Positions 5,966 to 46,707 of a stretch of 64,000 bases of DNA are shown one piece after another; position 1 is the first letter of the stretch, and every line of letters starts with the position of its first letter. The stretch comes from Rhodopseudomonas sp. (GTDB taxonomy: Bacteria > Pseudomonadota > Alphaproteobacteria > Rhizobiales > Xanthobacteraceae), in contig WGNB01000001.1 of the NCBI GenBank assembly GCA_016124795.1, positions 186,001 to 250,000 of the forward strand. Reading direction: 5' to 3'. Position numbers and translations under genes: made by a program. Under the pieces are notes generated by a model. The model saw nothing but the letters and a program-made list of their open reading frames with translations, made no database searches and was not told the origin of the DNA.

Positions 5966-6814
5966 TCAGAGGTTGGCTTTGGCGAGGAAGTCGCCGACCG
6001 TGCCGGCCAGTTCGGACGGGTTGTCACCGGCCAGATCATGGCTGCCGTTCACTTCGGCGACAGTTGCGGCCGGTTGGGTGGTTCGCACTTTATCCATGGT
6101 TTCGGCGGCGAACATGTCGGAACTGCTGCCGCGGATAACCAGCGTCGGCATTGTCAATGCGCCGAGCATCGGCCAGAGAAATTGCGGCGCCGGTGACGGA
6201 TTGCCTTCGAGCGCGCGTTTGAAGTTGTCGCGGTGGTGCAGGTCGCGCTTGAGCACATAGCCCTGGTCGGTCCTGGTCAGGAAGGCCTCCCAGCGGGCGC
6301 GGCGCGCCGGATTGTTCGGGTCGTCGTGGTGATAGGTCATCGCCTCGTCGACCGAGGCAAAGACATCGGGTTGCCGGCCGATCCGCTCGGCGACGTGTTT
6401 GCGGCCGGCGGCGGCGAGATCCGGCGCGAAGTCGACGAGCACCAGCGCCGCAGTTCGTTCCGGCTTCCAGCCGGCGGTGGCGAGACATACCCGGCCGCCG
6501 AATGAATGGCCCATCAAAATGGCCTTGTCCCAGCCAAGGGCATCGAGCACGGCGATGACGTCGTTGCTCAGCGTTTCAAGTTTGTAATCGCGGGCCGGGC
6601 TCCAGCCGGAATCGCCGAAGCCGCGCATGTCGATGGCGGCGACTTCGCGGTTCTGCGCCAGCAGCGTGGCGACTTTCGTCCAGTCGTAGGAAAAGAACGA
6701 CAGGCCATGGACGATGACGATGGGCGCGTGGCCGGGTTTGCCGAACTTGCGGTAGAAAATTTCGACATCGCCGGACGTGACGCGGCCGGTGACGGCTTGT
6801 TGATCCACGATCAT
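5966..6814 (-). CDS. Alpha/beta hydrolase, probable MhpC-like C-C bond hydrolase
   Basis: A 282-residue alpha/beta-fold hydrolase. The oxyanion HG is in VIVHGLSFF, the nucleophile is in GHSFGG, a likely acidic residue is in RGSSSD, and the catalytic His is in NGSHDLAGD. It is the third gene of a leftward unit behind an MhpB-type ring-cleavage dioxygenase. In meta-cleavage pathways the ring-opened product is next split by a hydrolase of just this fold, so a MhpC-like role is the likeliest reading. The fold also serves many other esterases and dehalogenases, and the sequence alone does not fix the substrate. Confidence 0.75.
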   Translation of the reverse strand: MIVDQQAVTGRVTSGDVEIFYRKFGKPGHAPIVIVHGLSFFSYDWTKVATLLAQNREVAAIDMRGFGDSGWSPARDYKLETLSNDVIAVLDALGWDKAILMGHSFGGRVCLATAGWKPERTAALVLVDFAPDLAAAGRKHVAERIGRQPDVFASVDEAMTYHHDDPNNPARRARWEAFLTRTDQGYVLKRDLHHRDNFKRALEGNPSPAPQFLWPMLGALTMPTLVIRGSSSDMFAAETMDKVRTTQPAATVAEVNGSHDLAGDNPSELAGTVGDFLAKANL

Positions 6815-6841: not shown

Positions 6842-7783
6842 TTAAGCCTGTCCGACCACGATGCCCATGCCGGTGATCCATTCCGGCACCAGGTGGTAGT
6901 AGCGCAATTCCGATTGCAGCGCGCCGGCGGCTTTCGCGGCTTCGGCGGCAGCGACCCAGGTGCGCACTTCGTGTGCGCCGAAGCCGGCCACACGGTCGAT
7001 CTCGGCATCGGTCATGCTGTCGAAGTCCTCGAGTTTCCCGGCGACGAAGGAGTTCAGGAAGTTGTGGTCCCATTGTTCGTCTGGCGGCAGGCAGGGGCCC
7101 TTGCCAACGACGAGGTCGCGCGCGGCGCGCACGACGCGGGCCTCGCGGGCGTCGAGTTCTTCCTGCGACGGTGTCGCGCCCTTGATCAGGCGTCGCGCCA
7201 CGTCGGGCGGGCTCAATTCGAGGCGCGGCGTCGGCGGGTCGTGCGACAGTCCGCCCGAACCGATGATGGTGATGCGCATGTTCTTGGTCGCCAGGAAATC
7301 GCCAACCGCCTTGCCGAAGGTGCGCACGCGCTTGAACGACGGGCGGGGATCGGCGGCGCAGTTGATGAAGATCGGCAGCACGTTGTAGCGGGCGAGTGCG
7401 CCGGTCAGCTTGTACAGCGGAATGGTGGTGCCGTGGTCGACCTTCATTTCGTGCGACAGCGCGACGTCGATGTCCCGGCCATGCAGGTGGCGTACGCAGT
7501 CCATCGCGATCTGGCGCGGGACGCGCAAGGGGCCGGCTTCCAGGTGCCAGTCCTTGGTGCCTTGCGCCGCCGTGCCGATGCAGAACATCGGCATCATTTC
7601 ATAGAAGAAGCCGTTGAAGTGGTCGGGCGCGAAAACCACGACGAGTTCCGGATCGAATTTATGCAGCGCGGCCGCGCACTGATCGAGTTCGCGAAAGAAC
7701 TCGGCGTGCACGCCGGTTTCGCTCTCCTCGACATCGGTCATCATCAGCGGGCTATGCGAGGCGCAGATCAATTGAACGGGCAT
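6842..7783 (-). CDS. mhpB: Class III (LigB-type) extradiol dioxygenase, 2,3-dihydroxyphenylpropionate 1,2-dioxygenase family
   Basis: The 313 residues line up end to end with the remembered E. coli MhpB (314 residues). Shared features include an SHSPL start, ELVVVFAPDHFNGFFY, the conserved HG in KVDHGTTIPL, GSGGLSHDPP with the second catalytic histidine, WDHNF, and a RYYHLVPEWITGMG end. MhpB opens 3-(2,3-dihydroxyphenyl)propionate next to its hydroxyls using ferrous iron and O2. GGAGGAAACC precedes the ATG. It sits between a dihydroxyphthalate-decarboxylase-like gene and a hydrolase gene. The real substrate may be another 3-substituted catechol, since no mhpD/E/F genes adjoin. Confidence 0.88.
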   Translation of the reverse strand: MPVQLICASHSPLMMTDVEESETGVHAEFFRELDQCAAALHKFDPELVVVFAPDHFNGFFYEMMPMFCIGTAAQGTKDWHLEAGPLRVPRQIAMDCVRHLHGRDIDVALSHEMKVDHGTTIPLYKLTGALARYNVLPIFINCAADPRPSFKRVRTFGKAVGDFLATKNMRITIIGSGGLSHDPPTPRLELSPPDVARRLIKGATPSQEELDAREARVVRAARDLVVGKGPCLPPDEQWDHNFLNSFVAGKLEDFDSMTDAEIDRVAGFGAHEVRTWVAAAEAAKAAGALQSELRYYHLVPEWITGMGIVVGQA

Positions 7784-33036: not shown

Positions 33037-33681
33037 TCAGATCGCGTCCCAGACCAGGACCTCGAGCGGCGTTGGATTATAGCCGTTGCAGGGGTTGTTG
33101 AGTTGCGGGCAGTTGGACAGCAGCACGATGACGTCCATGCAGGCCCGCATCTCGACGTATTTTCCCGGTCCGCTGACGCCGTCGGCGAAGGTGAGGCCGC
33201 CTTCGGGCGTTACCGGGACCTTCATGAAGAAGTTGATGTTGTGGGTGATGTCCCGCTTGGTCAGCTTGAATTCGTCATGTTCGGCTATCGCCAGCAGCCA
33301 ACTGTCGCGGCAGGCGTGCATCGTCCTCTTGTCGAGCGCGTAGCGAACGGTATTTGACTCTGTCGCGCATGCGCCGCCGAGCGTGTCGTGATATCCGACA
33401 GTGTCCGCGACGATTTCGAGCATCAGTTTGCACTCGGTCGAAAGCAGCCTGGAGCCGAGCCCGAGGTAGATGTTGCCTTGGCTGCGAATGGTATCGACCG
33501 CGCTGTAGCGCTCGGCCGGGTCTTCGGCGCTGAAGAACAACACGTCGGCGGCCTGATTGCCCTCGACATCGACGATCCGGAAGATTTGATCCTTGGCGAC
33601 GCGGCCGATCCAGTAATCGCCCGCGCCGACGACCTTGCGATACGTGGCGGTGTCGGGCGCTAACACGCTTTCCTTCAGCAT
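33037..33681 (-). CDS. DUF1989 protein, urea-carboxylase-associated (carboxyguanidine deiminase subunit-like), A
   Basis: From ATG 33681 (GGGAG 7 bp upstream) 214 residues; an ATG at 33708 adds nine. It strongly recalls one of the two urea-carboxylase-associated proteins: [66 protein letters not shown] and [16 protein letters not shown]. That pair was recently assigned as carboxyguanidine deiminase, CgdA/CgdB. Last gene of a leftward seven-gene operon, overlapping the next DUF1989 gene by 7 bp. No guanidine or urea carboxylase or allophanate hydrolase is in the window, so the substrate may differ. Confidence 0.82.
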
Positions 33682-34421
33682 GTATGGGCTCCCGGGCCGG
33701 CGCCACACATGTGATAAAGCTCGTTGTTCTGAAATCCGCGTTGGTTTTCTGGCCGAAAATTACGGCAGTAATCGTCGGCGGCGACCGGTTCGGCCTTGCT
33801 GAATTGCAGCGTGACGGGCTTTCGCGGGTAGGCGCCTGGCGGGTACATCGGATGCGGGCAGGTGTGCATCAGCACCAGCGTATCCATCTCGAACCGCAGT
33901 TCGACCGTTGAGCCGGCCGCTGAATGGGCCGGGTCGAAAGTCAGCGCGCCTTTCGCGTCCGGCGCGACCTTGCTGAACCAGTTGACGTTGGCGGCCAGAT
34001 CGCGGCGGCCGAGCCCGTATTTGCCGGCTTCGACCAGGAAGGCGTCGTGGCCGTTCTGTGTCCAGTCGTTGCGGGCGTCCTGATAGCTCTTCGAGCCCCA
34101 GCGTTCGGCCACGAGCGTCTTGTTGGCATTGCCCGCGACGGTGTCGTGCCAGCCGATGCTGTCGCCGACGATCGAGCAGAAGATCCGGCCCATGTCGGAA
34201 TAAAGGCAATGGCCCCGGGTCAGGCGGAAGGTGTGCTGACATTTTAGCGTGTCGGGGGCGTTGTAACGCTCCAGCGGATTTTGCGGATTATAGAACAGCA
34301 TGCCGACATTGGCCCCGCCGTCGATATCAGTCATGCGCAGGAGCATGCCGCGCGGAGCGGTAAAGGACCAATGTTTGCCGCCCTCGATGACGGTCTGATA
34401 GAGCGGCGGCCTGTCGTTCAT
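33675..34421 (-). CDS. DUF1989 protein, urea-carboxylase-associated (carboxyguanidine deiminase subunit-like), B
   Basis: The start ATG 34421 overlaps the stop of the upstream DUF1989 gene (ATGA). 248 residues, the longest of the trio. Features include [27 protein letters not shown] (in register), [27 protein letters not shown], and a Cys/His-rich tail ([28 protein letters not shown]). It corresponds to the other member of the urea-carboxylase-associated pair. With protein A it may form a heteromeric C-N hydrolase acting on an amidine or carboxyguanidine-like compound. The retained cysteines and histidines suggest metal or nucleophile sites, but this is not shown. Confidence 0.8.
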
Positions 34422-35065
34422 TGCGGGCCGGTTCGGTTTGCCTTGTAGACGATGACTTCGATCGGGGTCGGCTTCGAGCCGGCCGCCGGATTGAGTTCCT
34501 GCGGGCAGTTCGACAGAACCGCCAGTACCGGTCGTTCCGCCAGCAGTTCGACATAGTCGCCCGGCTTGGAGACGCCGTCGGCGATCACGACATGGCCGTC
34601 TTCCTTGAACGGCACACGCATGAAGAAATTGATGTTCGGGACGATCTCGGACGGACCCATCGCCCATTTCGACAGTTCGGCGATAAAATTAGCGCGGCAG
34701 CTCTGGGTCTTGACGACGTTATAACGCACCAGGTCGATTTCGTTGCTGCAACAGCCGGCCAGCGTGTCGTGGAAGCCGCAGGTATCCTCGACCACCGTGA
34801 ACAGCACCTTGGCGAGGTCGGAGTAGATCTTGCAGCCTTTGGTGATGTAGAGCGACTTGTTGAGCTTGATGGTGTTGGGCAGGTTGATGCGGTCGAGCGG
34901 TAGATCGGCGGAGTAGCACAGGAAGTCGACGGCCTGCTGGCCTTCGAGATCGACGATGCGCAACCGCTCGCCGGTTTCGATGCGCCGCGACCAGCGGCCG
35001 CGCGCCGGCACGATTTCACGGCTGACGATGGCCGAGGCGTCGTCGGCGAGGGGGGCGGCGGTCAT
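34418..35065 (-). CDS. DUF1989 protein, third paralogue, C
   Basis: 215 residues. The same family framework: RLRIVDLEGQQAVDFLCYSADLPLDRINLPNTIKLN (in register), VVEDTCGFHDTLAGCCSNEIDLVRYN, NINFFMRVPF, LSNCPQELNPAAGSKPTPIEVIVY. It resembles A more than B (NINFFM and SNCPQ segments) but clearly differs from both. The canonical guanidine operon has two DUF1989 subunits, so this third tandem copy is unusual. First of the three in the operon, 48 bp after the ABC ATPase gene. Confidence 0.82.
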   Translation of the reverse strand: MTAAPLADDASAIVSREIVPARGRWSRRIETGERLRIVDLEGQQAVDFLCYSADLPLDRINLPNTIKLNKSLYITKGCKIYSDLAKVLFTVVEDTCGFHDTLAGCCSNEIDLVRYNVVKTQSCRANFIAELSKWAMGPSEIVPNINFFMRVPFKEDGHVVIADGVSKPGDYVELLAERPVLAVLSNCPQELNPAAGSKPTPIEVIVYKANRTGPQ

Positions 35066-35113
35066 GGCGGTTCTCCGAAAGGGGGCGGCGGTTGGTCTTT
35101 GCGATCGACGGGT

Positions 35114-35923
35114 TCAGTTGTTGCGCGCGGCGTAGCGCATCAGGAACTGGCGCGCGCGCTCGGTTTCGGGCGCGGCGAAGAATTTCTCCGGCGCGCCGGT
35201 CTCGACGATCTGACCGGCATCCATGAACACGACCCGACTGGCGACGTCGCGGGCAAAGCCCATCTCGTGGGTGACCACCACCATCGTCATGCCGTCGCGC
35301 GCCAGGTCCTGCATCACCGAGAGCACCTCGCCGACGAGTTCCGGATCGAGCGAACTGGTCGGCTCGTCGAACAGGATGATGTCCGGCTTCATCGCCAGCG
35401 AGCGGGCGATGCCGACCCGCTGTTTCTGGCCGCCCGACAGCCGGGCCGGGAAGCTGTCCATCTTGTCGGCGAGGCCGACCCGTTGAAGCAGGGTTTCCGC
35501 CGTCCGTTTTGCCTCGGCCTTGTCCTGCTTGAGGACATGGACCGGCGCCTCCATGACGTTTTGTAGGACGGTCATGTGCGGCCAAAGCGCGAAGTGCTGG
35601 AAAACCATGCCGATACGGGTGCGCATTGCGGCAAGGTCCTTGTCGCTCATGCGCAGGCTGCTGCCCGGCCGGATGCCGACCGGCTGGCCGTTGAGCAGCA
35701 CCATGCCGCCGTCCGGCTCTTCCAGCCAGTTCATGCAGCGCAGTAGCGTCGACTTGCCGGAGCCGGACGGCCCCAGCAGGCAAACGGTTTCGCCTTTGTG
35801 GATTTGCAGGCTGATATCGCGCAGGACGGTATTGGCGCCAAATTTCTTGGAGAGCCCCCGGACCTCGAGGACAACGGGCGGTTCGCCGGTCGAGACGGCG
35901 GCGGCTTCGATGGGTTGCTGCAT
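35114..35923 (-). CDS. Polar amino-acid ABC transporter ATP-binding protein (HisP/GlnQ type)
   Basis: The start ATG 35923 overlaps the permease stop by one base (TAATG). 269 residues: Walker [27 protein letters not shown] typical of the PAAT group, signature [16 protein letters not shown], Walker [16 protein letters not shown]-loop THEMGFA. It energises uptake with the two permeases and the family-3 binding protein of the same operon. The three DUF1989 enzymes downstream probably process the imported compound. Confidence 0.93.
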
Positions 35924-36576
35924 TAGCGCCGTTCCTCGGCAAAGCGATTGACGTATCCGACCGTGCTTTCGATGGTCACGCAGGTTATCCAGTACAGAAT
36001 GACGGCGGCGACGAAGGAGGCGAACGGCACGAAATAGGTGGTCTGCAACGACGTCGCCTCGTGGGTGAGCTCGGCGACGGCGATGACGGTGAGAAAGGCG
36101 CTGTCCTTGACGATTTGGATCAACTGATTGCCGATCAACGGCAGCGCCGAGAACATCACCGGCGGCAGGATGATGCGGCGGAACAGACCCCAGCCGCTGA
36201 AGCCGAAGGCATGGCCGGCCTCGATCAGTTCCTTTGACAGGTTCGACCAGGCGGCGCGCAACAGTTCGGCCATATAGCCGGCGTGATAGAGAACGAGCGC
36301 GGCGACGCCGGCCCACCAGTTGTCGAGCTGTATGCCGAAACTTGGCAGGCCGAAATAGAGCAGATAGGCGAACAGCAGGAAGGGCACGCAACGCATGGCG
36401 TCGACATAGGCTGTGGCCATCATCACGAAGCCGCGCCGGCCCGACATCAGCGGGATGGTCAGTAGGGTGCCGATGAGCAGCGAGCCGGCCGCGCCGATGG
36501 CGACGATGATCAGGGTGTTCTGGAACCCGATCAGGATCATGTCCCGATGTTGCCAGACGATTGAAAATCCGTTCAT
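35923..36576 (-). CDS. Polar amino-acid ABC transporter permease (HisM/GlnP type)
   Basis: 217 residues, about five membrane helices, with the His/Glu/Gln/Arg-type permease EAA region [30 protein letters not shown] (in register). It starts ATG 36576 overlapping the TGA of the other permease by one base and ends at TAA overlapping the ATPase start, so the operon is tightly coupled. It pairs with the 36576-37220 product to make the membrane channel. Confidence 0.92.
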
Positions 36577-37220
36577 CAGTGCGCTCCGGCCAGGGCGTAG
36601 CGCCGTTCGACAGTCCGTTGCATAGTCACGAAGGCGAAGACGATCAGGCTGTACAGCACCAGCGCGACGACGAAGGGCGGCAACGGCTCATAAGTCCGCG
36701 CGCCGACCCGGATCGCCGCCCGCGTGATTTCGACGATGCCGATGACGGCGACCGCCGGGGTTGCCTTGACCTGCAAGGTCATTTCGTTGACCAGCGCCGG
36801 CAGGCTCGTGTGAATGATATGCGGCAGAACGATATGGCGAAACCGCAAGCCGCGCCGCATGCCGAAGGTCAGGGCGGCGTCGTATTGGTCTCGCGGGAAA
36901 TTCACCAATGCGTTGCGCCAGATCTCGGTATTGAACGCAGCGGTGCTGACCGTCAGCGTCAGAATGCCAGCCGGAACGGGTTCCAGCGAAATGCCGACGA
37001 CCGGCAGCGCATAGAAAACCAGCAGCGCCAGCGTGACGGTCGGACAAGTCCGGATCACGCTAACGTAGCCGATCACCAGTTGATTGAGGACGGGCAGGCG
37101 GGACCAGCGGATAAGCGCCAAGCCGAGACCGAGCGGCACGCCGAGCACGATGCTGACGAGGGACAAAGAAACCGTCGCCAGCGCACCGTAAGCGATGCTG
37201 TAATAGTCGTAGCTTGTCAC
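36576..37220 (-). CDS. Polar amino-acid ABC transporter permease (HisQ type)
   Basis: 214 residues with five predicted membrane segments and the PAAT-type motif [31 protein letters not shown] (in register). It forms a heterodimer with the adjacent permease. The gene lies 29 bp after the binding-protein gene. Confidence 0.92.
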
Positions 37221-37249: not shown

Positions 37250-38119
37250 CTACTTGGCGCTTTCAGCCATGTCCTTGAAGCTGGTGCCGAACCACTTTTC
37301 CTGGAGTTCGTACATCTTGCCGCTCTTGCGGACGGCCAGAATGGCGTCGTCGATCGCCTTGGCGAAGTCGGTATTGCCCTTCTTCATGGCCCAGGCGATG
37401 TAGACCGGCTTGGCGATGCCTTCGCCGAGCGCGAACACGCTGGACTTTTCCTTGACCAGCGACCGAAGGTTGATTTCGGTGTTGACCACGGCGTCGGTCC
37501 GGCCGAGCGCCAGATCCTGATAGGCTTCCGGGTTGGACGGATACTCGACGATCTTCTTCAGACCGGCGCCGCCCTTGGCCTTGAGGCTGGCGTCGAAGGC
37601 CTTCAGTTCGGCGAGCATGGCCGAGCCGGCCTGGGCACCGACTGTTTTGCCGTTGAGGTCGCTGCCCTTCTTGATGCTTGAGCCGGCCTTGGTGGCGAAG
37701 AAGGTCGTCGATTGCGCGACCGGGCTCGAGAACTCGAAAGCCGGCTTGCGCACTTCGGTCACCAGAACGGCGGTGACGGCGATGTCGTATTTTCCGGTGG
37801 TCACGCCGGGCAGGATGCCCGACCACGGCAGGATCTGCTGCTTGATTTCGAACGGCAGCTTCTTTTTGACTTCGGCCAGAAGGTCGTTGTCGTAACCCTT
37901 GGAAACGCCGTCTTCCATGAATTCGAACGGCTTGAAGTCGTCTTCGGTGACGGCGGTCGCATAACCGTGGGCCTTGATGTCCTTGAGGCCTTCGGCGTGC
38001 GACGGAATTGCCGTCGCGGTGAGCGTGATGCCGGCCAATGCGATGGCGGCGAGAGCGACGGTGGGAAGCCGCCGAAGCGCCGCACGGCGGTTCAGGCGGA
38101 CAAATGCGAGATCGGTCAT
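37250..38119 (-). CDS. Family-3 periplasmic substrate-binding protein of the amino-acid-type ABC transporter
   Basis: 289 residues. The N-terminus has RLNRRAALRRLPTVALAAIALAGITLTATA ending SHAEG (in register), an export signal with an RR pair. The mature part has the SBP_bac_3 pattern: FKPFEFMEDGVSKGYDNDLLAEV, a ligand-loop region, LNGKTVGAQAGSA and a Trp-rich end (LQEKWFGTSF). First gene of a seven-gene leftward operon. A sigma-54 promoter match lies about 160 bp upstream on the same strand, implying induction under nitrogen limitation. The ligand is probably nitrogenous, but its identity cannot be read. Confidence 0.9.
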   Translation of the reverse strand: MTDLAFVRLNRRAALRRLPTVALAAIALAGITLTATAIPSHAEGLKDIKAHGYATAVTEDDFKPFEFMEDGVSKGYDNDLLAEVKKKLPFEIKQQILPWSGILPGVTTGKYDIAVTAVLVTEVRKPAFEFSSPVAQSTTFFATKAGSSIKKGSDLNGKTVGAQAGSAMLAELKAFDASLKAKGGAGLKKIVEYPSNPEAYQDLALGRTDAVVNTEINLRSLVKEKSSVFALGEGIAKPVYIAWAMKKGNTDFAKAIDDAILAVRKSGKMYELQEKWFGTSFKDMAESAK

Positions 38120-38277
38120 AGAATGCCTCGTTGGTTGGCCAAGCCTTGTGCCTGGGGCGTCGTGTGACCGGATTTCCGTCGGTCCCGGCCGACGATGAAG
38201 TCGCCATCAAACGCCATGGCACATTCACCAAAGACAGGGGCTTGCGCCGCCGAAACATCCAGTCGTCGCGTAAGCTT

Positions 38278-38292
38278 GCAAGCGGTATGCCA
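38278..38292 (-). promoter_or_regulatory. Sigma-54 (RpoN) promoter for the ABC transporter/DUF1989 operon
   Basis: On the minus strand the sequence reads TGGCAT-ACCGC-TTGC followed by A, matching TGGCAC-N5-TTGCA with exactly ten bases between the GG and GC. The predicted transcript starts near 38266 and has a leader of about 145 nt before ATG 38119. Confidence 0.72.
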
Positions 38293-38416
38293 GCGTTGTC
38301 GGGCGTTCCGCCCGTCCGTGGGGGCGGCAGGCCCCGATTTTGCAAAAGCGTCGCAATGGCGGCTTCGCTGGCGTCGGTTACATCCGCAACGAAACCGCTT
38401 GGGCAGCGTCCGGCAA

Positions 38417-38453
38417 ATTCGTCAGTATCATGATCATCAGTATAAGGACGAAT
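38417..38453. promoter_or_regulatory. Candidate enhancer (activator-binding) dyad
   Basis: ATTCGTC (38417-38423) and GACGAAT (38447-38453) are a perfect 7-bp inverted repeat around ATGATCAT (38430-38437) and two copies of TCAGTAT (38422-38428 and 38437-38443). It lies about 125-175 bp from the leftward and 98-134 bp from the rightward sigma-54 match, normal distances for an enhancer-binding protein site. It does not match the NtrC consensus I know. Confidence 0.5.
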
Positions 38454-38550
38454 GCCCAAATGGACGCCGTAGCCTGCTCGCTATGTATGCACCGGTAGCG
38501 CCAAACCGCGGGTCGCGTACACGGTTGCGCGTTTGTGGGGCAAAGCTGTC

Positions 38551-38565
38551 TGGCACAGGACTTGC
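38551..38565 (+). promoter_or_regulatory. Sigma-54 (RpoN) promoter for the molybdenum hydroxylase operon
   Basis: TGGCAC-AGGAC-TTGC matches the -24/-12 consensus with all six and four core bases and correct ten-base GG-GC spacing. The predicted start lies near 38577, about 110 nt before ATG 38687. Confidence 0.78.
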
Positions 38566-38686
38566 GAACCGTGCGGACATGTTCGGAAGCGTGCGGCAAA
38601 GGACCGGCGCGAGCCGGTGATACTGGAAAGATTGCTGCGGCCAAGCCCGACCGCGCGGCGCGGCGGAAAGATGGAAGTTCGGCTTT

Positions 38687-41050
38687 ATGAGCGAGACTAA
38701 CGGCAAACGCGCGGGCGTCGGTTCATCCGTTTTGCGTTTGGAGGACGACCGCTATCTGCGCGGCCGCGGTCGGTTCATCGCCGATATCCGGTTACCGGCC
38801 ATGTTGGATGTTGCATTCGTGCGCAGTCCGCTCGCGCATGCGCGGGTACGCGGCATCGGCAAGCCGCAAGGTTTCGAGGACAAGGTCTTCGTGATGACCG
38901 ACCTCGACGGCGTCCAGGGCATTCGCGCCGATTCGGGATTGCCGGGATTTCGCAGTTCGGTGCAGCCGATTCTGGCGAGCGACAAAGTGCGCCATGTCGG
39001 CGAGCCGCTGGCGGCTTGCGTTGCCGAAAGTCGCGCCGAGGCCGAGGACATCGCCGACATGGTGTCGCTCGATCTCGAGGAATTGCCGGCGGTGGTCGAG
39101 ATGACCCGCGCCCGCGATCCGGGTGCGCCGCTGGTTCACGAAAACTGGTCGGAGAACGTCTTTCTTGAAACCGCCGTCGATACCGACTTCGAAAAATCGG
39201 TGAAGGATGCCGCCGTGAAGGTGAAGCGGACGTTTCGCACCGCGCGCCAGAGCATGGCGCCGATGGAAGGCCGCGGCGTCGTCGCTTATTGGGATAATCA
39301 GGCGCAGCAGATCGTGGTTTATACCTCGACGCAGATGCCGCACATTGTGCGCAATGGCCTGGCCGGCTGCCTCGGTCTCGATCAGGGCATTGTCCGGGTG
39401 GTCGCGCCGGATGTCGGCGGCGGTTTCGGTTACAAGGGCATCCTGCTCGGCGAAGAAGTGTGCCTGGCTTACCTGGCGATGAAGCTGAAGCGGCCGGTGC
39501 GCTGGATCGAGGATCGGCGCGAGCATCTGACCGGCAACGCCAATTGCCGGGAACATCATTACGAGATCACCGGCTACGCGGCCGCCGACGGGAAACTGCT
39601 GGCGATCGATTGCGACGCGATTGTCGATTCCGGCGCCTATTCGGCTTATCCGTTTTCGGCCTGTCTGGAGGCCGCGCAGGTCGCCAGCATTCTGCCGGGG
39701 CCCTATCAGTTTCCCGGCTATCGCTGCCGGACCTGGTCGGTCGCCACCAATAAGCCGGCGATCCTGCCGTTCCGCGGCGTGGCGCGCACCGGCGTTTGCT
39801 TCGCGCTCGAGGTGCTGCTCGATTCCATCGCCCGCGAACTCAATTTGCCGCCCGAAGAGGTGCGCCGCAAAAATCTGGTTCGTCCGGAGCAGATGCCTTT
39901 CGTCAACATCACCAAGAAGATCTTCGACAGCGGCGATTACGTCGAATGCCTCGATCGCGCGGTGACTGCGCTCGATCTGCCGGCGATCCGCGCCCGTCAA
40001 GCGGCTGGCGAGGCCGATGGACGCAGAATCGGCGTCGGACTGGCGATTTTCTGCGAGCAGGGCGCGCATGGCACGTCGGTCTATTCGGGGTGGGGCATTC
40101 CGATGGTGCCGGGCTTTGAGCAGGCGACGGCCCGGCTGACCCCGGACGGCGGACTGGAATTGCGCGTCGGTGTGCAAAGCCATGGCCAGAGCCTGGAGAC
40201 GACGCTGGCACAAGTCGCCAATGAAGTGCTGGGGATTGCGCCGCAACGGGTCAAGCTGGTGCACGGTGACACCGCGCTCACGCCTTATTCGACCGGCACC
40301 TGGGGTTCGCGTTGCGCCGTGATGGCGGGCGGTGCGGTGGCGGCGGCCTGCGATGTTCTGGCCGGCCGTATCCGCAAGATTGCCGGTCATCTTCTGCAGG
40401 CCGATCCGGAGTCGGTCGTGCTGGCCGATGGCATGGCGCGCGCGGCGGGCAGTGAAATCGCGCTCAAGGATATCGGCGCGGCCTGGTATCTGCGGCCGCA
40501 GGACTTGCCGGCCGATGTTGATCCGGCCGGGCTCGAAGCCACGCAAGGTTACAAGACCCAGCGCGACACCGGCACTTTCTCGTATGCCTGCCACGCTGCG
40601 GTGGTCGCGGTTGATACCGAGACAGGGGCGATTGAGATCCTCGACTATAAAATTGTCGAGGACGGCGGTGTGCTGATCAATCCGATGGTGGTCGATGGCC
40701 AGGTCTATGGTGGCGCGGCTCAGGGGATCGGCACCGCGCTTTATGAAGAAATGCGCTACGACGAAACCGGGCAGCCTTTGGCCGCGACCTTCGCCGACTA
40801 TCACTTGCCGGGCGCTTGCGAAATGCCGGTCATGACCGTCGATCATATGCAGTTTCCGTCGCCGATCAGTCGTTTCGGCCAGAAGGGTATCGGCGAGGGC
40901 GGCGCGATCGGACCGCCGGCGGCGATCGCCAATGCGGTCAACGATGCCCTGGCACCGCTGGGCGTCGAGGTCGACGCCCTGCCGATGACGCCGTTCCGGG
41001 TGCTGGCTCAATTGGCGCGAGGCCTCAACAAGTCGGAGCAGGCCGCATGA
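38687..41050 (+). CDS. Molybdenum hydroxylase large subunit (xanthine dehydrogenase/CoxL superfamily)
   Basis: 787 residues, normal for the Mo-cofactor subunit. An N-terminal a/b-hammerhead domain (LRLEDDRYLRGRGRFIADIRLPAM, in register) is followed by the Mo-cofactor part with PDVGGGFGYKG and the catalytic glutamate at about 737 in GIGEGGAIGPP. The CO-dehydrogenase active-site loop AYRCSFR is absent; at that place stands PFRGVARTG, so this is not CO dehydrogenase but a hydroxylase of an N-heterocycle, aldehyde or similar carbon. The operon order L-M-S and the sigma-54 promoter fit nitrogen-compound breakdown. It ends in an ATGA overlap. Confidence 0.9.
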   Translation: MSETNGKRAGVGSSVLRLEDDRYLRGRGRFIADIRLPAMLDVAFVRSPLAHARVRGIGKPQGFEDKVFVMTDLDGVQGIRADSGLPGFRSSVQPILASDKVRHVGEPLAACVAESRAEAEDIADMVSLDLEELPAVVEMTRARDPGAPLVHENWSENVFLETAVDTDFEKSVKDAAVKVKRTFRTARQSMAPMEGRGVVAYWDNQAQQIVVYTSTQMPHIVRNGLAGCLGLDQGIVRVVAPDVGGGFGYKGILLGEEVCLAYLAMKLKRPVRWIEDRREHLTGNANCREHHYEITGYAAADGKLLAIDCDAIVDSGAYSAYPFSACLEAAQVASILPGPYQFPGYRCRTWSVATNKPAILPFRGVARTGVCFALEVLLDSIARELNLPPEEVRRKNLVRPEQMPFVNITKKIFDSGDYVECLDRAVTALDLPAIRARQAAGEADGRRIGVGLAIFCEQGAHGTSVYSGWGIPMVPGFEQATARLTPDGGLELRVGVQSHGQSLETTLAQVANEVLGIAPQRVKLVHGDTALTPYSTGTWGSRCAVMAGGAVAAACDVLAGRIRKIAGHLLQADPESVVLADGMARAAGSEIALKDIGAAWYLRPQDLPADVDPAGLEATQGYKTQRDTGTFSYACHAAVVAVDTETGAIEILDYKIVEDGGVLINPMVVDGQVYGGAAQGIGTALYEEMRYDETGQPLAATFADYHLPGACEMPVMTVDHMQFPSPISRFGQKGIGEGGAIGPPAAIANAVNDALAPLGVEVDALPMTPFRVLAQLARGLNKSEQAA

Positions 41051-41868
41051 AACCCGTTCGTTTCGATTATGCCGCGGCCCCGGATGCTGCGACCGCTTGC
41101 TCGCTGTTGACGCAGAGTGTTGCCGCCAAGCCGATCGCCGGCGGCCAGTCGCTCGGGCCGATGCTGAATTTGCGACTCGTCCGGCCTGACGCTTTGGTCG
41201 ATATCTCGCGGGCAAGCGATTTGCGCGGCGTTCGCGATGAGGGCAATGCGATTGTCTACGGCGCCGCGGTGACCCACGCCGAAATCGAGGACGGTGCGGT
41301 GCCCGATGCGACGCCCGGCTGGCTGGCGTCGGTGGCGCGGCGGATCGCCTATCGCGCGGTGCGCAATCGCGGCACCATCGGCGGCAGTCTGGCGCATGCC
41401 GACCCGGCGGCCGATTGGGTCAATGTACTGACCGCGCTTGACGCCAGCGTCGTCCTGACCCGGTCGCTCGGCACGCGGACCGTCGCTCTCGCCGAGTTTT
41501 TCACCGGGCCGTTTGCTACCGTGCTGGCGCATGACGAGATCGTTACCGGCGTCCGTGTGCCCAAGCGTGGCGCGGCGGCGCGCTGGGGTTATTGGAAATT
41601 CTGCCTGAAGGTCGGCGATTTCGCCAAAGCCAGCGCGGCGGTGTTGATCGATCCGGAACGGGGCGAGACGCGGATATTACTCGGCGCGATCGAGAAGCCG
41701 CCGATCCTGTTGTCGGACGCGTCGGCGATTTTGGCCGGCAGAATGCCGCTCGCGGCGGTCGTCACCGATGTGGCGCCGCATCTGTCCTACGATTCACATG
41801 CTTTGCATGTTGCCGCGCTTCGTCGCGCGATTGCGTTGGCGACGGCGAGCGGTGAGGTGGCGGCATGA
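41047..41868 (+). CDS. Molybdenum hydroxylase medium (FAD-binding) subunit
   Basis: The start ATG 41047 overlaps the large-subunit stop. 273 residues: the PCMH-type FAD domain with AKPIAGGQSLGPMLNLRLVRP and RAVRNRGTIGGSLAHADPAADW, then a C-terminal CO-dehydrogenase-flavoprotein-like domain. It passes electrons from the iron-sulfur subunit to an acceptor. It overlaps the small subunit gene by 4 bp. Confidence 0.92.
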   Translation: MKPVRFDYAAAPDAATACSLLTQSVAAKPIAGGQSLGPMLNLRLVRPDALVDISRASDLRGVRDEGNAIVYGAAVTHAEIEDGAVPDATPGWLASVARRIAYRAVRNRGTIGGSLAHADPAADWVNVLTALDASVVLTRSLGTRTVALAEFFTGPFATVLAHDEIVTGVRVPKRGAAARWGYWKFCLKVGDFAKASAAVLIDPERGETRILLGAIEKPPILLSDASAILAGRMPLAAVVTDVAPHLSYDSHALHVAALRRAIALATASGEVAA

Positions 41869-43013
41869 CGGCGTTGACCCTGAGCGTTAACGGCGTCGAG
41901 GTGACGCGCGACGTCGAGCCGCGCACTCACCTTGCCGATTTCGTGCGCGAGAACCTGAACCTGACCGGCACGCATATCGGCTGTGAGCATGGCGTCTGCG
42001 GCGCTTGCACGATGATCGTCGACGGCCGGCCGGTGCGTTCCTGCCTGAGCTATGCGGTATCTTGCGCCGGCGCCGACGTCCGAACGCTGGAATCCTTCGA
42101 TAATGATCCAGTCGTTGGCCTGCTGCGCGACGCGTTCAGCCGTCACCATGCGCTGCAATGCGGTTATTGTACGCCCGGCATGCTGGCGACCGCTTTTGAT
42201 ATCGTGACGCGCTTGCCGGAAGCCGACGAGACGCGGATTCGCGAAGAGCTTTCCGGCAACCTGTGCCGTTGTACCGGTTACGTTGGGATCGTCGCGGCGA
42301 TCCGCGACGTCTTGGCGCGTGGTCCGCATGCCCGCACGGTCGAGCCGGTGGCGCGCGGAGTGTCGCCGCGGGCGGTCTCAGGCTGGACCGATGCAACAAA
42401 GGTGGCCGCTGGCGATGCGGCTACGGCGACGTTCGCCGTTCCAGTGCCGGAACGGATCGACGGCGGCCAGACGTTGAGCCGGTCGATCCCGGTGCCGGTC
42501 TCAGTCGAGCGGCTATGGGCCACGCTTCAGGATATCGAGACCATCGCCAGGTGTCTGCCGGGCGCGTCGATTGAAAGGATCAATCCCGATGGTTCGGTCG
42601 AAGGCGCATTCGCGGTCGCGATCGGTCCGATGAAGGCGCGCTTTGCCGGCACCGCGCAGGTCGCCTACGACGCAAGTTCGCGCAGCGGCACGGTCCGCGG
42701 CGCCGGTGGCGACGGCATCAGCCGCTCGCGCGCCGATGGCGCCATTCGCTTCGCCGCCGTAGCGGCGGGAGACGACGCCTCCCGTCTCGATATCGACATG
42801 ACCTACAAGCTCAGCGGTCCGCTGGCGCAGTTCGGCCGGCCAGTGGTGGTCGCGCATGTTGTCGACCGCATGCTGGGTGAGGTGGCGGCCAATCTGGCGC
42901 GGGTGAGCGAGGGCGGCGTGGCGACGGCATCGGCCCCTATTGGCGGCATCGGCTTCGTGTTAGGCACTGTGCTGGCGATGCTGCGCCAGTTATTGATCAA
43001 GGACGGAAAATAG
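41865..43013 (+). CDS. Fusion of molybdenum hydroxylase 2x[2Fe-2S] small subunit and CoxG-like domain
   Basis: 382 residues. The first 160 form a standard small subunit: plant-type cluster Cys40, 45, 48, 60 and second cluster Cys99, 102, 134, 136 (CGYCTPGML, CRCTGYVGI). After a low-complexity linker, residues about 200-360 match the CoxG/SRPBCC fold (SRSIPVPVSVERLWATLQDIETIARCLPGA, in register; GPMKARFAGTAQV) and a hydrophobic tail. CoxG anchors CO dehydrogenase to the membrane in Oligotropha, so the fused domain may tether this hydroxylase to the membrane or a quinone. The normal small subunit is about 160 residues. Confidence 0.9.
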   Translation: MTALTLSVNGVEVTRDVEPRTHLADFVRENLNLTGTHIGCEHGVCGACTMIVDGRPVRSCLSYAVSCAGADVRTLESFDNDPVVGLLRDAFSRHHALQCGYCTPGMLATAFDIVTRLPEADETRIREELSGNLCRCTGYVGIVAAIRDVLARGPHARTVEPVARGVSPRAVSGWTDATKVAAGDAATATFAVPVPERIDGGQTLSRSIPVPVSVERLWATLQDIETIARCLPGASIERINPDGSVEGAFAVAIGPMKARFAGTAQVAYDASSRSGTVRGAGGDGISRSRADGAIRFAAVAAGDDASRLDIDMTYKLSGPLAQFGRPVVVAHVVDRMLGEVAANLARVSEGGVATASAPIGGIGFVLGTVLAMLRQLLIKDGK

Positions 43014-43045: not shown

Positions 43046-43555
43046 ATGCTGGAGAAAACCAAACAAGGCCGGGATAGCGCGCCGCGCGGGGACGACTGGC
43101 ACGGCAAGCCGTTGCAGGAGCGTCCCGGCTTTCTGATCCGCCGGTTGCACCAGATTCATGTCGCCTTGTTCATGGAAGAATGCGCCGGCGAAAGCATCAC
43201 CCCGGTGCAGTACAGCATTCTGACCGCGCTCGACCATATCGGCGCTGCCGAGCAGATCGTGCTGTCGGGTGCGGTCGGTCTCGACACCACCAATGTCGCC
43301 GACGTGCTGGCCCGACTCGAGCGCCAGAAGATGATCAAGCGCCGGATGTCGCCGCGCGACAAGCGGATGAAGATCGTGTCCCTGACCGACACTGGCCGGG
43401 CACTGTTGCAGCGCATCGACGCCGGCGCCGCCCGCGCCCATGAGCGCACGCTGGCCGCGTTAAGTCCGACAGCGCGCGCCCGCTTCATGCGCGATCTCGA
43501 AACGCTGGTCGAAGCCAACAATGACCTCAGTCGGACGCCGGTCGGTACGCGCTGA
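43046..43555 (+). CDS. MarR-family transcriptional regulator
   Basis: 169 residues with the MarR fold: ESITPVQYSILTALDHIG, the recognition helix region GLDTTNVADVLARLERQKMIKRRMSPRDKR (in register) and KIVSLTDTG. It lies 32 bp after the molybdenum hydroxylase small subunit on the same strand, so it could be cotranscribed and act as a feedback or substrate-sensing regulator. Convergent with the Rieske gene. Confidence 0.88.
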   Translation: MLEKTKQGRDSAPRGDDWHGKPLQERPGFLIRRLHQIHVALFMEECAGESITPVQYSILTALDHIGAAEQIVLSGAVGLDTTNVADVLARLERQKMIKRRMSPRDKRMKIVSLTDTGRALLQRIDAGAARAHERTLAALSPTARARFMRDLETLVEANNDLSRTPVGTR

Positions 43556-43589: not shown

Positions 43590-43991
43590 TCAGCGGGCGC
43601 TGAGATCCCAGACCTGGCGGTTGCCGCCGGGCGGGTTGCGGTTGACGGCATTGGCGTCGACTTCGATGGCGTCACCGGTGATGCGCGCCGGATAAAGCTT
43701 CAGCGCCGCGACATTGCGCCAGCCAGCCGAGACCGCGCCGTCGTCGAGCGCGAAAGAGGCGAGATGGCGGGGACAGACCAGCCGGCCCTCCTCGATCCGG
43801 CCTTGCGACAGGTCGGCTTTCTCGTGGGGGCACATGCCCTGAAAGGCGTAGATCGCGTTGCCGCGCCGCGCCAGCACCAGCGCATGGCTCTCCAGCATGA
43901 CGCGCAGCATGCCGCCGTCCGGCAAGGTATCGACGGTGGCAACCGCGATGTAGCGGGGCGGGGCGGATTGGCCGGTCGTATTCAATGTCAT
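43590..43991 (-). CDS. Rieske-type [2Fe-2S] ferredoxin
   Basis: From ATG 43991, 133 residues. The Rieske motif is complete: C-P-H in MCPHEKA and C-P-R-H in VCPRHLASF, 16 residues apart. A soluble electron carrier, usually feeding a ring-hydroxylating oxygenase, or a small regulatory/assembly partner. There is no oxygenase alpha subunit in the window. The gene starts back to back with the DUF1116 gene: their 5' ends overlap by 7 bp if both first ATGs are used. The extra 25 residues after the Rieske fold are not characteristic. Confidence 0.85.
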   Translation of the reverse strand: MTLNTTGQSAPPRYIAVATVDTLPDGGMLRVMLESHALVLARRGNAIYAFQGMCPHEKADLSQGRIEEGRLVCPRHLASFALDDGAVSAGWRNVAALKLYPARITGDAIEVDANAVNRNPPGGNRQVWDLSAR

Positions 43992-45151
43992 GTTCCCGAA
44001 ATTTCTCGATGAGGTCGACTTTGTCCGGTCAAGCCACGCGCCTGTCGTTCGAACGCTTTCTGGCTGCCGTGCCGCAACTCGATGGCTGCGCGCCGCTTGC
44101 GTCGTCGGTTGCGTTGCCGGACAGAACTTTATTGCACGCCGGACCGCCGTTCCAGACGGGCGTTGCATTGCCGCCGCCGGTTCGCAACGCGGCGGCCAAT
44201 GCCGCGCAATTCGAAGGTTGGGCGTCGGATTTTGACACGGCCTGCACCGCCCTGGCGCGCGGCGATATCCGGCTCGCGCCGGCACAGGACTTCGGCGTGG
44301 TCACGCCTTTGGCTTTCGTGGTGTCGCCGTCGATGCCGGTGTTGCGGATGATGGACGCTGCGGGAAGCGCGGTCGTGCGCTATTCGCCGGTGAATGACGG
44401 ACCGCCACCGGCGGCGCTGCGGTTCGGCAGCCGGCATGAGGGGCAGATGGATCGCCTGGCGCTGATCGGCCGGATCAGCCCGGCGCTGAATGAAGCCTTG
44501 CGCGATGCGATCCCGCTGCTGCCGATTTTGCGCGCCGGGCTTGATGGCGGCGACGATCTGCACGGTCGCGTGTCGGCCGCCAACGCCGCTTTGGCCGACG
44601 TACTGGCGTCGCGGCTGTCGGGCGAGGCGCGCGATTACCTGACGCTCGCCAATCAATTCGTGCTCAATGTCATCATGGCGGCTTGCGCGGTGATGATCGG
44701 CGCGGGGGGCGGTATCGCGGACAGCCGTCTGGTGACGGTGGCCGGCGGCAACGGTATCGACTTTGGCTGGCAACTGGCTGGAATGCCGGGCGTGTGGCGG
44801 ACAGCGGCTGCCGTGCCGCCTGCCGGTCCGCATTTTCCGCACACCGCCGGACGGCCGTTTCTGCCGGCCATCGGCGACAGCGCGGTGATCGATGCCTGCG
44901 GTTTCGGTGCGGCGGCCTTGCGCTATGCGCCGGAGATTATCGCGGCGTTGCGCGGCTCCGTGGACGACGGTTATTTCACCGTCTCCGCCAGTGCCGGATT
45001 CATCGGTCCGCATCCGGCCTTTCCGTCCGGCCTCAGGCTCGGCCTCGATATCGATCATCGCGGATCGCTACACGGCGTCATGCTGGCGGCGGTCGACGCT
45101 GACGGCGAGGCCGGCCTCATCGGCCGCGGTGTCGCGCCTTGGCCGCGTTAG
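43985..45151 (+). CDS. DUF1116 (YlbE/AllG-like) protein
   Basis: 388 residues; the family (E. coli AllG, a subunit of oxamate carbamoyltransferase in allantoin breakdown) is typically somewhat longer. Conserved-looking parts are GDDLHGRVSAANAAL (compare GDE.HNR in the family), LANQFVLNVIMAACAVMIGAG, GGNGIDFGWQLAGMPGVW and FIGPHPAFPSGLRLGLDID. The partners AllF (FdrA-like) and AllH (DUF2877) are not in the window. Starts at 43985, 44009 and TTG 44021 are all possible; none has a good ribosome site. Possible role: handling a carbamoyl intermediate of the nearby amidohydrolase and ureohydrolase reactions. Confidence 0.75.
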   Translation: MSCSRNFSMRSTLSGQATRLSFERFLAAVPQLDGCAPLASSVALPDRTLLHAGPPFQTGVALPPPVRNAAANAAQFEGWASDFDTACTALARGDIRLAPAQDFGVVTPLAFVVSPSMPVLRMMDAAGSAVVRYSPVNDGPPPAALRFGSRHEGQMDRLALIGRISPALNEALRDAIPLLPILRAGLDGGDDLHGRVSAANAALADVLASRLSGEARDYLTLANQFVLNVIMAACAVMIGAGGGIADSRLVTVAGGNGIDFGWQLAGMPGVWRTAAAVPPAGPHFPHTAGRPFLPAIGDSAVIDACGFGAAALRYAPEIIAALRGSVDDGYFTVSASAGFIGPHPAFPSGLRLGLDIDHRGSLHGVMLAAVDADGEAGLIGRGVAPWPR

Positions 45152-45217: not shown

Positions 45218-46486
45218 TCAAGCCGCGATCGCGTCGGGGATCAGCGGCGAGTCGCTGTCGTGGCGGGTGCCCTCGCGCAGGCAGAACACCGGCCGGATCA
45301 GCTTGTCGGAGACGACCTCGACGCCGCTGTTGTCCGACAGCTTGAACTTGCCGTTGAGAACTTCGAGCACGCTGACATCGGCGGTACGGCCGACCTTGAG
45401 CGCGCCGATTTCGTCTTCCAGATTGACCATCATGGCCGGGTGCGACGTGACGGTCGCGACGATTTCCTCAAGCGTCATGCCGAGCGCCAGCAGTTCGGTC
45501 ATGGCGATGGTCAGGCTGAACGGCGCGATGCCGAAGAACGGATTTTCCTCGCGGACGTTCTTGTCCATGCCGGCCGGCGGCACCTTGACGTTATAACCAT
45601 GCAGGTCGGCGCCGAGCGTGAACGGCCGGACGCCGGCGTCGAGCACGCGCTTGGCAACCTCGAAGCTGAAATGCGAGCCATGGCCGACATCGACCCGCAC
45701 GCCGCGCGCGATGGCTTCGAACACGATCGGGTGGACTTCGCCTTCCTTGTTGACGAAACCGCCGGGATGCCGCGTGAACGGATGGGCGAGAATGTCGCCC
45801 GGCCGCATGATCGGCACCAGTTCGCGGATCAGTTCGTCGGCGTCCGGCACCGGGCCTTCCTCGAGGCTCGGCCACAACTGGCCAAGGTGAATGTAAAGCG
45901 GCAGGCCGGTCTGGTCGGCGATGACCCGGCCGGTTTTGATGACGTCGAGGCCCCAGCGCGACTGGCCGCCGATCTCGGCATGGGCCTTGATGCCGCGCAC
46001 GATGTCGAGATTTTCCTTGGCGACGCGCACGGTATGTTCGACGTTGACGCCGGTCGGACCGTAGAGGTCAGGGTACAGATGGCCTTCAAGGCCGCCAACC
46101 AGGTAGCAGGAAATGAAGCACAGTAACCGGCTCTTCGAGGTTTCGGCGAGGTAATGCCGGAAGCCGCCGAGCGTCATGCAGCTCGGGCCGCCCTGATCGA
46201 TCAGCGTGGTCACGCCGGAGCGGACGCCGACCATGTCGGGATTGAGACCAAAGCGCCCGGTCACATGCTCGTAGACATGGGCATGGGTGTCGATCATGCC
46301 GGCGGTCACCAGCTTGCCGTTGACGTTGACCTTTTCGCGCGCCGGCGCCTGCGACAGGTCGGGCTCGACAGCGGCGATCTTGCCGCCGGCGATGGCGACA
46401 TCGTAGCGGCCGTTCAGTCCGGTCGCGGGGTCGATGACGGTGCCGCCGGACAGGACGAGATCGTAAGGAAACTGGGCAGTGTTCAT
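45218..46486 (-). CDS. Amidohydrolase/deacetylase-family metallohydrolase (dihydroorotase-like)
   Basis: The start ATG 46486 is chosen (AAGG 7 bp upstream; the longer frame adds 46 atypical residues). 422 residues of the amidohydrolase TIM barrel: LVLSGGTVIDPATGLNGRYDVAI at the N-terminus, metal site GMIDTHAHVYEH (HxH), a later HLGQ and a C-terminal small domain GALKVGRTADVSVLEV. The family hydrolyses cyclic amides, hydantoins or N-acyl groups. Here it is placed after a phosphoribosyltransferase and ureohydrolase. Its upstream region repeats ATTCGTCAGTAT from the sigma-54 enhancer region. Confidence 0.85.
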   Translation of the reverse strand: MNTAQFPYDLVLSGGTVIDPATGLNGRYDVAIAGGKIAAVEPDLSQAPAREKVNVNGKLVTAGMIDTHAHVYEHVTGRFGLNPDMVGVRSGVTTLIDQGGPSCMTLGGFRHYLAETSKSRLLCFISCYLVGGLEGHLYPDLYGPTGVNVEHTVRVAKENLDIVRGIKAHAEIGGQSRWGLDVIKTGRVIADQTGLPLYIHLGQLWPSLEEGPVPDADELIRELVPIMRPGDILAHPFTRHPGGFVNKEGEVHPIVFEAIARGVRVDVGHGSHFSFEVAKRVLDAGVRPFTLGADLHGYNVKVPPAGMDKNVREENPFFGIAPFSLTIAMTELLALGMTLEEIVATVTSHPAMMVNLEDEIGALKVGRTADVSVLEVLNGKFKLSDNSGVEVVSDKLIRPVFCLREGTRHDSDSPLIPDAIAA

Positions 46487-46567
46487 GGCCGTACCTTCAA
46501 GGGTTATGCACACCGGAGGGCCGGGCCGTTCGCGGCCGCTGCCGTCCGGCTGTCGCCGCGCCGGAAT

Positions 46568-46579
46568 ATTCGTCAGTAT
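46568..46579. promoter_or_regulatory. Copy of the enhancer-like element upstream of the amidohydrolase
   Basis: ATTCGTCAGTAT is identical for 12 bases with 38417-38428 in the divergent sigma-54 region. It lies 82 bp before the amidohydrolase ATG, in a 221-bp gap. TATACT on the minus strand (46575-46580) could be a -10. No sigma-54 match was found here. Confidence 0.4.
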
Positions 46580-46707
46580 ACCGATAAACTGGCCCGCCGC
46601 GCATGTCGAAATAAATGGCGGCATTGCGCAAAAATACGGCAGCGGTAACCGGCTTTTCGGCGTGGCAATCGGCCGTTCCGCCGCGGCGTCACGGGCGATT
46701 GCCGCGT

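Follow-up and report, generated by a model that had tools for sequence, protein, structure and literature searches.

Within the 64,000-nucleotide stretch of Rhodopseudomonas DNA analyzed here (the window), a 567-bp intergenic region (38120-38686) separates a leftward transporter/DUF1989 operon from a rightward molybdenum hydroxylase operon, and carries two outward-facing matches to the sigma-54 promoter with an inverted repeat between them (Table 1). The cluster also encodes, at 43985-45151, a member of the AllG family (PF06545, oxamate carbamoyltransferase subunit). Because DUF1989/UAAP2 proteins, an amidohydrolase and the AllG-like protein are found together with a phosphoribosyltransferase and an agmatinase-family enzyme, a nitrogen-rich substrate is suggested, and the two operons probably serve the scavenging of a nitrogen compound.

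Table 1. Genes and candidate regulatory elements of the cluster, in window coordinates.
Feature	Position	Strand	Remarks
Two permeases, ATPase and three DUF1989 proteins (remainder of left operon)	33037..37220	-	syntenic in L064
ABC transporter binding protein, first gene of left operon	37250..38119	-	PF00497
Sigma-54 promoter CTGGCATACCGCTTGC	38278..38293	- (read 38293 to 38278)	predicted, toward transporter/DUF1989 operon
Dyad ATTCGTC-N23-GACGAAT	38417..38453	.	candidate pair of overlapping MarR-type operators
NtrC-box-like 17-mer TGCTCGCTATGTATGCA	38475..38491	.	weak candidate enhancer, 8/10
Sigma-54 promoter CTGGCACAGGACTTGC	38550..38565	+	predicted, toward molybdenum hydroxylase operon
Molybdenum hydroxylase large, FAD and 2Fe-2S/CoxG subunits	38687..43013	+	first gene 38687-41050
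MarR-family regulator	43046..43555	+	PF01047; proposed palindrome binder; syntenic in Root1462 and G010
Amidohydrolase	45218..46487	-	NCBIfam NF006689 above cut-off; start codon by eye
Third palindrome copy	46570..46587	.	precedes amidohydrolase gene; sigma-54 match absent within 300 bp

Both promoter matches agree with the -24/-12 consensus given in PMC3844500, having GG at -24, TGC at -12 and ten bases between GG and GC, and both point away from the dyad, as a preliminary description of this DNA had stated. A lone match to YTGGCAYN5TTGC is weak evidence, since the pattern occurs 20 times in the 5.14-Mb genome of the window versus 7 times for the reversed control. Among the matches listed, these two are the only such sites within the 64-kb window, and the 12 plus-strand and 8 minus-strand sites of the genome would be expected to yield 0.0056 divergent pairs at 300 bp or less. 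The preliminary description had proposed looking for the layout in related genomes, and it recurs in relatives from Pseudolabrys: Root1462 (Pseudolabrys sp., G026, with one locus entered as both L064 and L106) is fully syntenic and keeps both promoters and the dyad, and G010 (L065) keeps the hydroxylase operon, the right promoter and the dyad but lacks the transporter operon, a sigma-54 match standing at the place corresponding to the right window promoter in both genomes. In the alignment of the three genomes, 29 of the 37 dyad positions and 11 of the 16 right-promoter positions are identical, compared with only 35/158, 23/123, 11/58 and 21/115 in the neighboring stretches; the left promoter is identical at 16/16 positions between the window and Root1462 and at 9/16 three ways, G010 being without the transporter operon there. 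The promoters gain support because they are kept in Root1462 amid diverged intergenic DNA, an RpoN gene (PF04552) is present in the window genome (G000), in Root1462 and in G010, and sigma-54 control of both operons is thus well supported as a prediction. The ten less similar hydroxylase loci (L066-L075) have no sigma-54 match by the large-subunit gene, L068 has one adjoining a MarR gene, and a pattern scan of 43 genomes of the genus returned matches only at the three known loci.

The dyad is likewise present between the promoters as first described, and, when its gap is allowed to range from 15 to 35 bases, the pattern matches once in the window, with 0.01 matches expected per window from shuffles. 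It can be better read as a pair of 18-bp palindromes, both copies of TCRTCAGYATRCTGAYGA, that overlap and are offset by 15 bp (38419-38436 and 38434-38451). This palindrome emerged as a shared sequence from upstream regions with sigma-54 matches, such regions having been noted in a wider comparison of 54 gene-mapped loci taken from named records; against a 20-base consensus the two copies score 15/20 and 16/20, and the second scores 16/18 against the 18-bp palindrome. The same 15-bp doubling can be seen by eye in L108 and L115, and in weaker form in L111, ahead of the hydroxylase gene. The copy before the amidohydrolase gene is the sole exact TCRTCAGYATRCYGAYRAW match in the window genome among the matches listed, and an operator scan allowing three mismatches yields 261-285 matches per genome, mostly GC-rich. 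A one-mismatch copy lies at G000:C49:92587 (about 5588 in L195), in the gap separating a TRAP-type binding protein gene from a nitrilase/acetyltransferase-like gene that diverges from it (genes named by eye), and is a possible further target.

In the wider set of loci, the palindrome goes with the recognition helix of the MarR protein. When 460-bp upstream regions of 55 loci were scored at a threshold of 15/18 or more, it was found in 10 of the 11 loci whose MarR helix belongs to the G[LIV]D class versus 1 of the 44 others, a count that is partly circular in that the helix classes were defined after viewing the alignment and the consensus came from some of the counted loci, and whose 55 rows include short contigs, such as L158, incapable of scoring; the Fisher value of 4e-9 treats related loci as independent and hence is not a fair probability. 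The single exception among the 44 is L107, where the contig stops short of the MarR position, the G[LIV]D-class locus L153 falls under the threshold with a score of 14, and a score of 15 is reached by 21 of 1500 windows drawn at random from the same loci. The consensus was written by eye from six counted loci (window, L107, L108, L111, L125 and L143), with L065, L115, L126, L156 and L221 scored after it was written, and both L112 (gene map and motif hits as in L111) and L064 (the same locus as L106) were dropped before the count. MarR helices of the LDRTTTTG class are accompanied by a different palindrome, ACGAAGYATRCTTCGT, in 13/13, and neither palindrome is present with the DKTN-class helices of L110, L113 and L116. 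This second motif occurs in 15 loci, in two of which (L124 and L129) a full MarR was not found, and TGGCAY-N6-TGC lies 9-13 bp upstream of it in 14 of the 15, the exception being L108, a locus with both regulators and both motifs, each motif preceding its own genes. All matches to NCBIfam MarR models are far under cut-off and no named subfamily fits. The palindrome is likely to be the operator of the cluster's own MarR class, the predicted motif changing with the recognition helix. A second candidate operator, CGAAGYATRCTTCG, lies 9-13 bp after TGGCAY-N6-TGC before the amidohydrolase gene in 14 loci: L119, L124, L129, L130, L133-L135, L137, L139, L140, L144, L146, L151 and L157, with L151 and L157 having a variant with CGACG.

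The exact pattern TCRTCAGYATRCTGAYRA was also scanned in 385 alphaproteobacterial genomes, giving matches in three genomes and, for the backwards control, in one. Two of the matches fall within ORFs whose 19-kb surroundings show neither a hydroxylase nor a MarR match. The sole intergenic one (under no long ORF) is at L221:9805 in G156; the cluster there is orthologous (66% for the large subunit, 50% for MarR), and its MarR helix, GIDRTNITDVAVRL, is of the predicted class. There the palindrome lies 2 bp after a sigma-54 site, TTGGCACGAGCTTTGC; a second copy, at 6643, is 92 bp away from a sigma-54 match that points toward the hydroxylase gene, and another, at 7523, begins 22 bp past a further sigma-54 match. 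Such a scan recovers the best sites only, because the exact 18-mer is missing from the window's own genome.

Considering where the palindrome stands relative to sigma-54 matches, two layouts can be distinguished. In the upstream layout (window, L106, L065, L125 and L143), the starts of the palindrome copy and of the sigma-54 match are separated by 91-142 bp, the left match of L125 falling outside this range at 216 bp; in the start-site layout (L107, L108, L111, L115 and L156), the copy overlaps the -12 element or begins within 7 bp after it, with extra upstream copies at 169 bp in L111 and 38 bp in L156, and the predicted sigma-54 start sites of these five loci and of L221 are covered by the palindrome. 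The palindrome has a divergent sigma-54 pair on its two sides in the window, L106, L125 and L143; Skermanella and Azospirillum are among the genera with this arrangement. Sigma-54 matches precede the transporter binding protein gene in Aurantimonas (L108), Jiella (L111 and L115) and an uncultured Rhizobiales MAG (L109), this last with neither motif nor a MarR match despite its sigma-54 site, and L107 has a match before the amidohydrolase gene. For nine of the 22 palindrome copies listed, the 300 bp to either side hold no sigma-54 match; these include the copy at 46570 and those before the hydroxylase gene in L108, L111, L115, L126 and L156. Komagataeibacter saccharivorans (L126, G067) possesses both the palindrome and the MarR protein, and a search of its genome with two Pfam models gave no match to RpoN. 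That genome also encodes three activator-domain (PF00158) proteins despite the lack of an RpoN match, two of them neighbors on one contig and placed, I infer, like ntrC and ntrX.

As the preliminary description had noted, no activator gene is linked to the cluster: PF00158 has nine matches in the window genome, five with E below 1e-50, and all are on contigs other than the window's own, C43. Of the 56 sources whose open frames were scanned for the activator motif GAFTGA, only L151 and L157 contain it, and tblastn with the activators of the window genome gave weak matches in L140, L141 and L147. An extra activator on contig C69 matched no orthologue in Root1462 or G010; on the same contig, a PAS-type activator-like protein (L033, 8545-10110, minus strand) has AAFPGA in place of the expected GAFTGA and may be without sigma-54 contact. 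The 17-mer beside the dyad resembles the NtrC box TGCACC-N5-GGTGCA (as in PMC8743547), its counterparts scoring 9/10 in Root1462 and, by eye, 6/10 in G010, and a match of at least 8/10 is expected in about 4% of random 138-bp windows. An 8/10 match is also found next to the palindrome, separated from it by a single base, in L125, L143 and L156; the remaining copies score 5-7/10. A genome-wide scan for the box was set aside as a guide, since TGCACN7GTGCA with one mismatch gave 69, 71 and 127 forward matches in the three genomes versus 29, 37 and 65 for the controls, too many and only about twice control. Nitrogen limitation is plausible as the signal, and unproven because the NtrC-like 17-mer is weak.

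How, then, should the dyad be interpreted? The preliminary description took it to be the enhancer of a single sigma-54 activator switching on both operons, and a conserved palindrome at an enhancer-like distance from both promoters is what one would expect of such a site, particularly as PMC3844500 places many enhancers about 70-150 bp upstream. However, an enhancer belongs where sigma-54 and an activator operate, preferably with a dedicated activator gene nearby, whereas this palindrome tracks the MarR class, lies on predicted start sites at the loci named above, lacks a nearby sigma-54 match at nine of its 22 listed copies and occurs in Komagataeibacter with no match to RpoN, and contig C43 carries no activator gene. 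The three Komagataeibacter activator-domain proteins do leave room for an activator site that could work there without sigma-54, and I regard the enhancer reading as unlikely overall. What remains supported of the original proposal is the pair of sigma-54 promoters, a predicted control of both operons together from one central element and the lack of a linked activator; what is not supported is that element's role as an activator enhancer.

Slightly less probable is that the sigma-54 sites are real and that the dyad contains a sigma-70 promoter of its own (for instance TTCGTC-N17-TATAAG) under the control of the palindrome, giving two promoters per operon. By eye, the palindrome core TATACT/TATAAG does resemble a -10 box, the nine copies with no nearby sigma-54 match would fit, and Komagataeibacter would have to rely on a different sigma factor should it really lack RpoN; but a sigma-70 consensus scan placed no site in the dyad, its one match being at 38097-38124, and the -35 part is poor. 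That the sigma-54 matches are mere chance in a GC-rich genome can be considered very improbable: the reversed control does still produce its seven matches, and 15 of the 19 sites listed lie under an ORF of at least 150 aa in one of the six frames (as does the left promoter, under a spurious ORF, so that this carries little weight), but the tiny number of divergent pairs expected, the conservation and the recurrence of the sites before the same genes in other families all speak against it.

The probable arrangement, to my mind, is a dual-control switch in which sigma-54 with an unlinked activator supplies one input and the MarR protein gates both operons by substrate. The two outward promoters would drive the transporter/DUF1989 and molybdenum hydroxylase operons, the central palindrome pair would be the operator of the MarR protein encoded downstream of the hydroxylase subunits, and an unlinked enhancer-binding protein, for which NtrC is the simplest candidate, would deliver the general signal. 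As long as substrate is lacking, MarR would sit some 115-145 bp away from the promoters, measured start to start, and serve as a repressor rather than an activator by interfering with the enhancer-binding protein or with DNA looping to the two promoters; where a relative has the palindrome on the start site, it would block the polymerase directly; and a compound of the pathway would release MarR, so that uptake and oxidation are permitted together. Against this stands that MarR repressors seldom use an operator so far upstream (more than 100 bp). A more specific version is offered only tentatively and is rather more doubtful than not, namely that the site is a natural anti-enhancer, where MarR, placed at enhancer distance between divergent sigma-54 promoters and beside an NtrC site, blocks activator binding or looping, and where several lineages of Alphaproteobacteria retained a nitrogen AND substrate logic even as the position of the operator and the gene content of the operons shifted.

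Sigma-54 promoters are generally portrayed as being under the control of activators alone, and no MarR-controlled sigma-54 promoter was found among the top-ranking matches of a literature search. The window resembles the MarR family at large in having a small winged-helix regulator encoded in its proposed target operon and a palindrome of about 18 bp, and differs in that its promoters are of the sigma-54 type and the candidate operator is more than 100 bp upstream of them. In Escherichia coli, ygeV and ygeW belong to a purine-catabolism region holding the molybdenum enzyme xdh. The intergenic region between these two genes is a target of RpoN holoenzyme (PMC8743547), and sigma-54 binding in a divergent intergenic region is likewise predicted in the window, although in the E. 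coli case the regulator gene is one of the divergent genes, whereas the window has no activator gene and has its MarR gene in the operon. For an upstream MarR that may block the activator or the loop, synthetic NtrC-sigma-54 enhancers give a precedent: in the designs described in PMC4740811, a repressor bound between the activator site and the promoter lowers output via the loop. The proposed likeness is that of a DNA-bound repressor acting on a sigma-54 promoter through a loop; those designs use LacI, TetR or TraR sites, loops of more than 150 bp and one promoter, whereas the window has a natural candidate site and two promoters.

The comparison corrects an enhancer call of the kind to be expected from a consensus scan, and it provides a likely binding motif for an uncharacterized group of MarR proteins that go with a molybdenum hydroxylase pathway. 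If the proposed switch is true, a recurring site for an operon-encoded repressor at sigma-54 promoters, whether over the start site or at enhancer distance, would be the natural counterpart of synthetic loop-quenching designs, and the cluster would offer a testable AND gate responding to substrate plus nitrogen.
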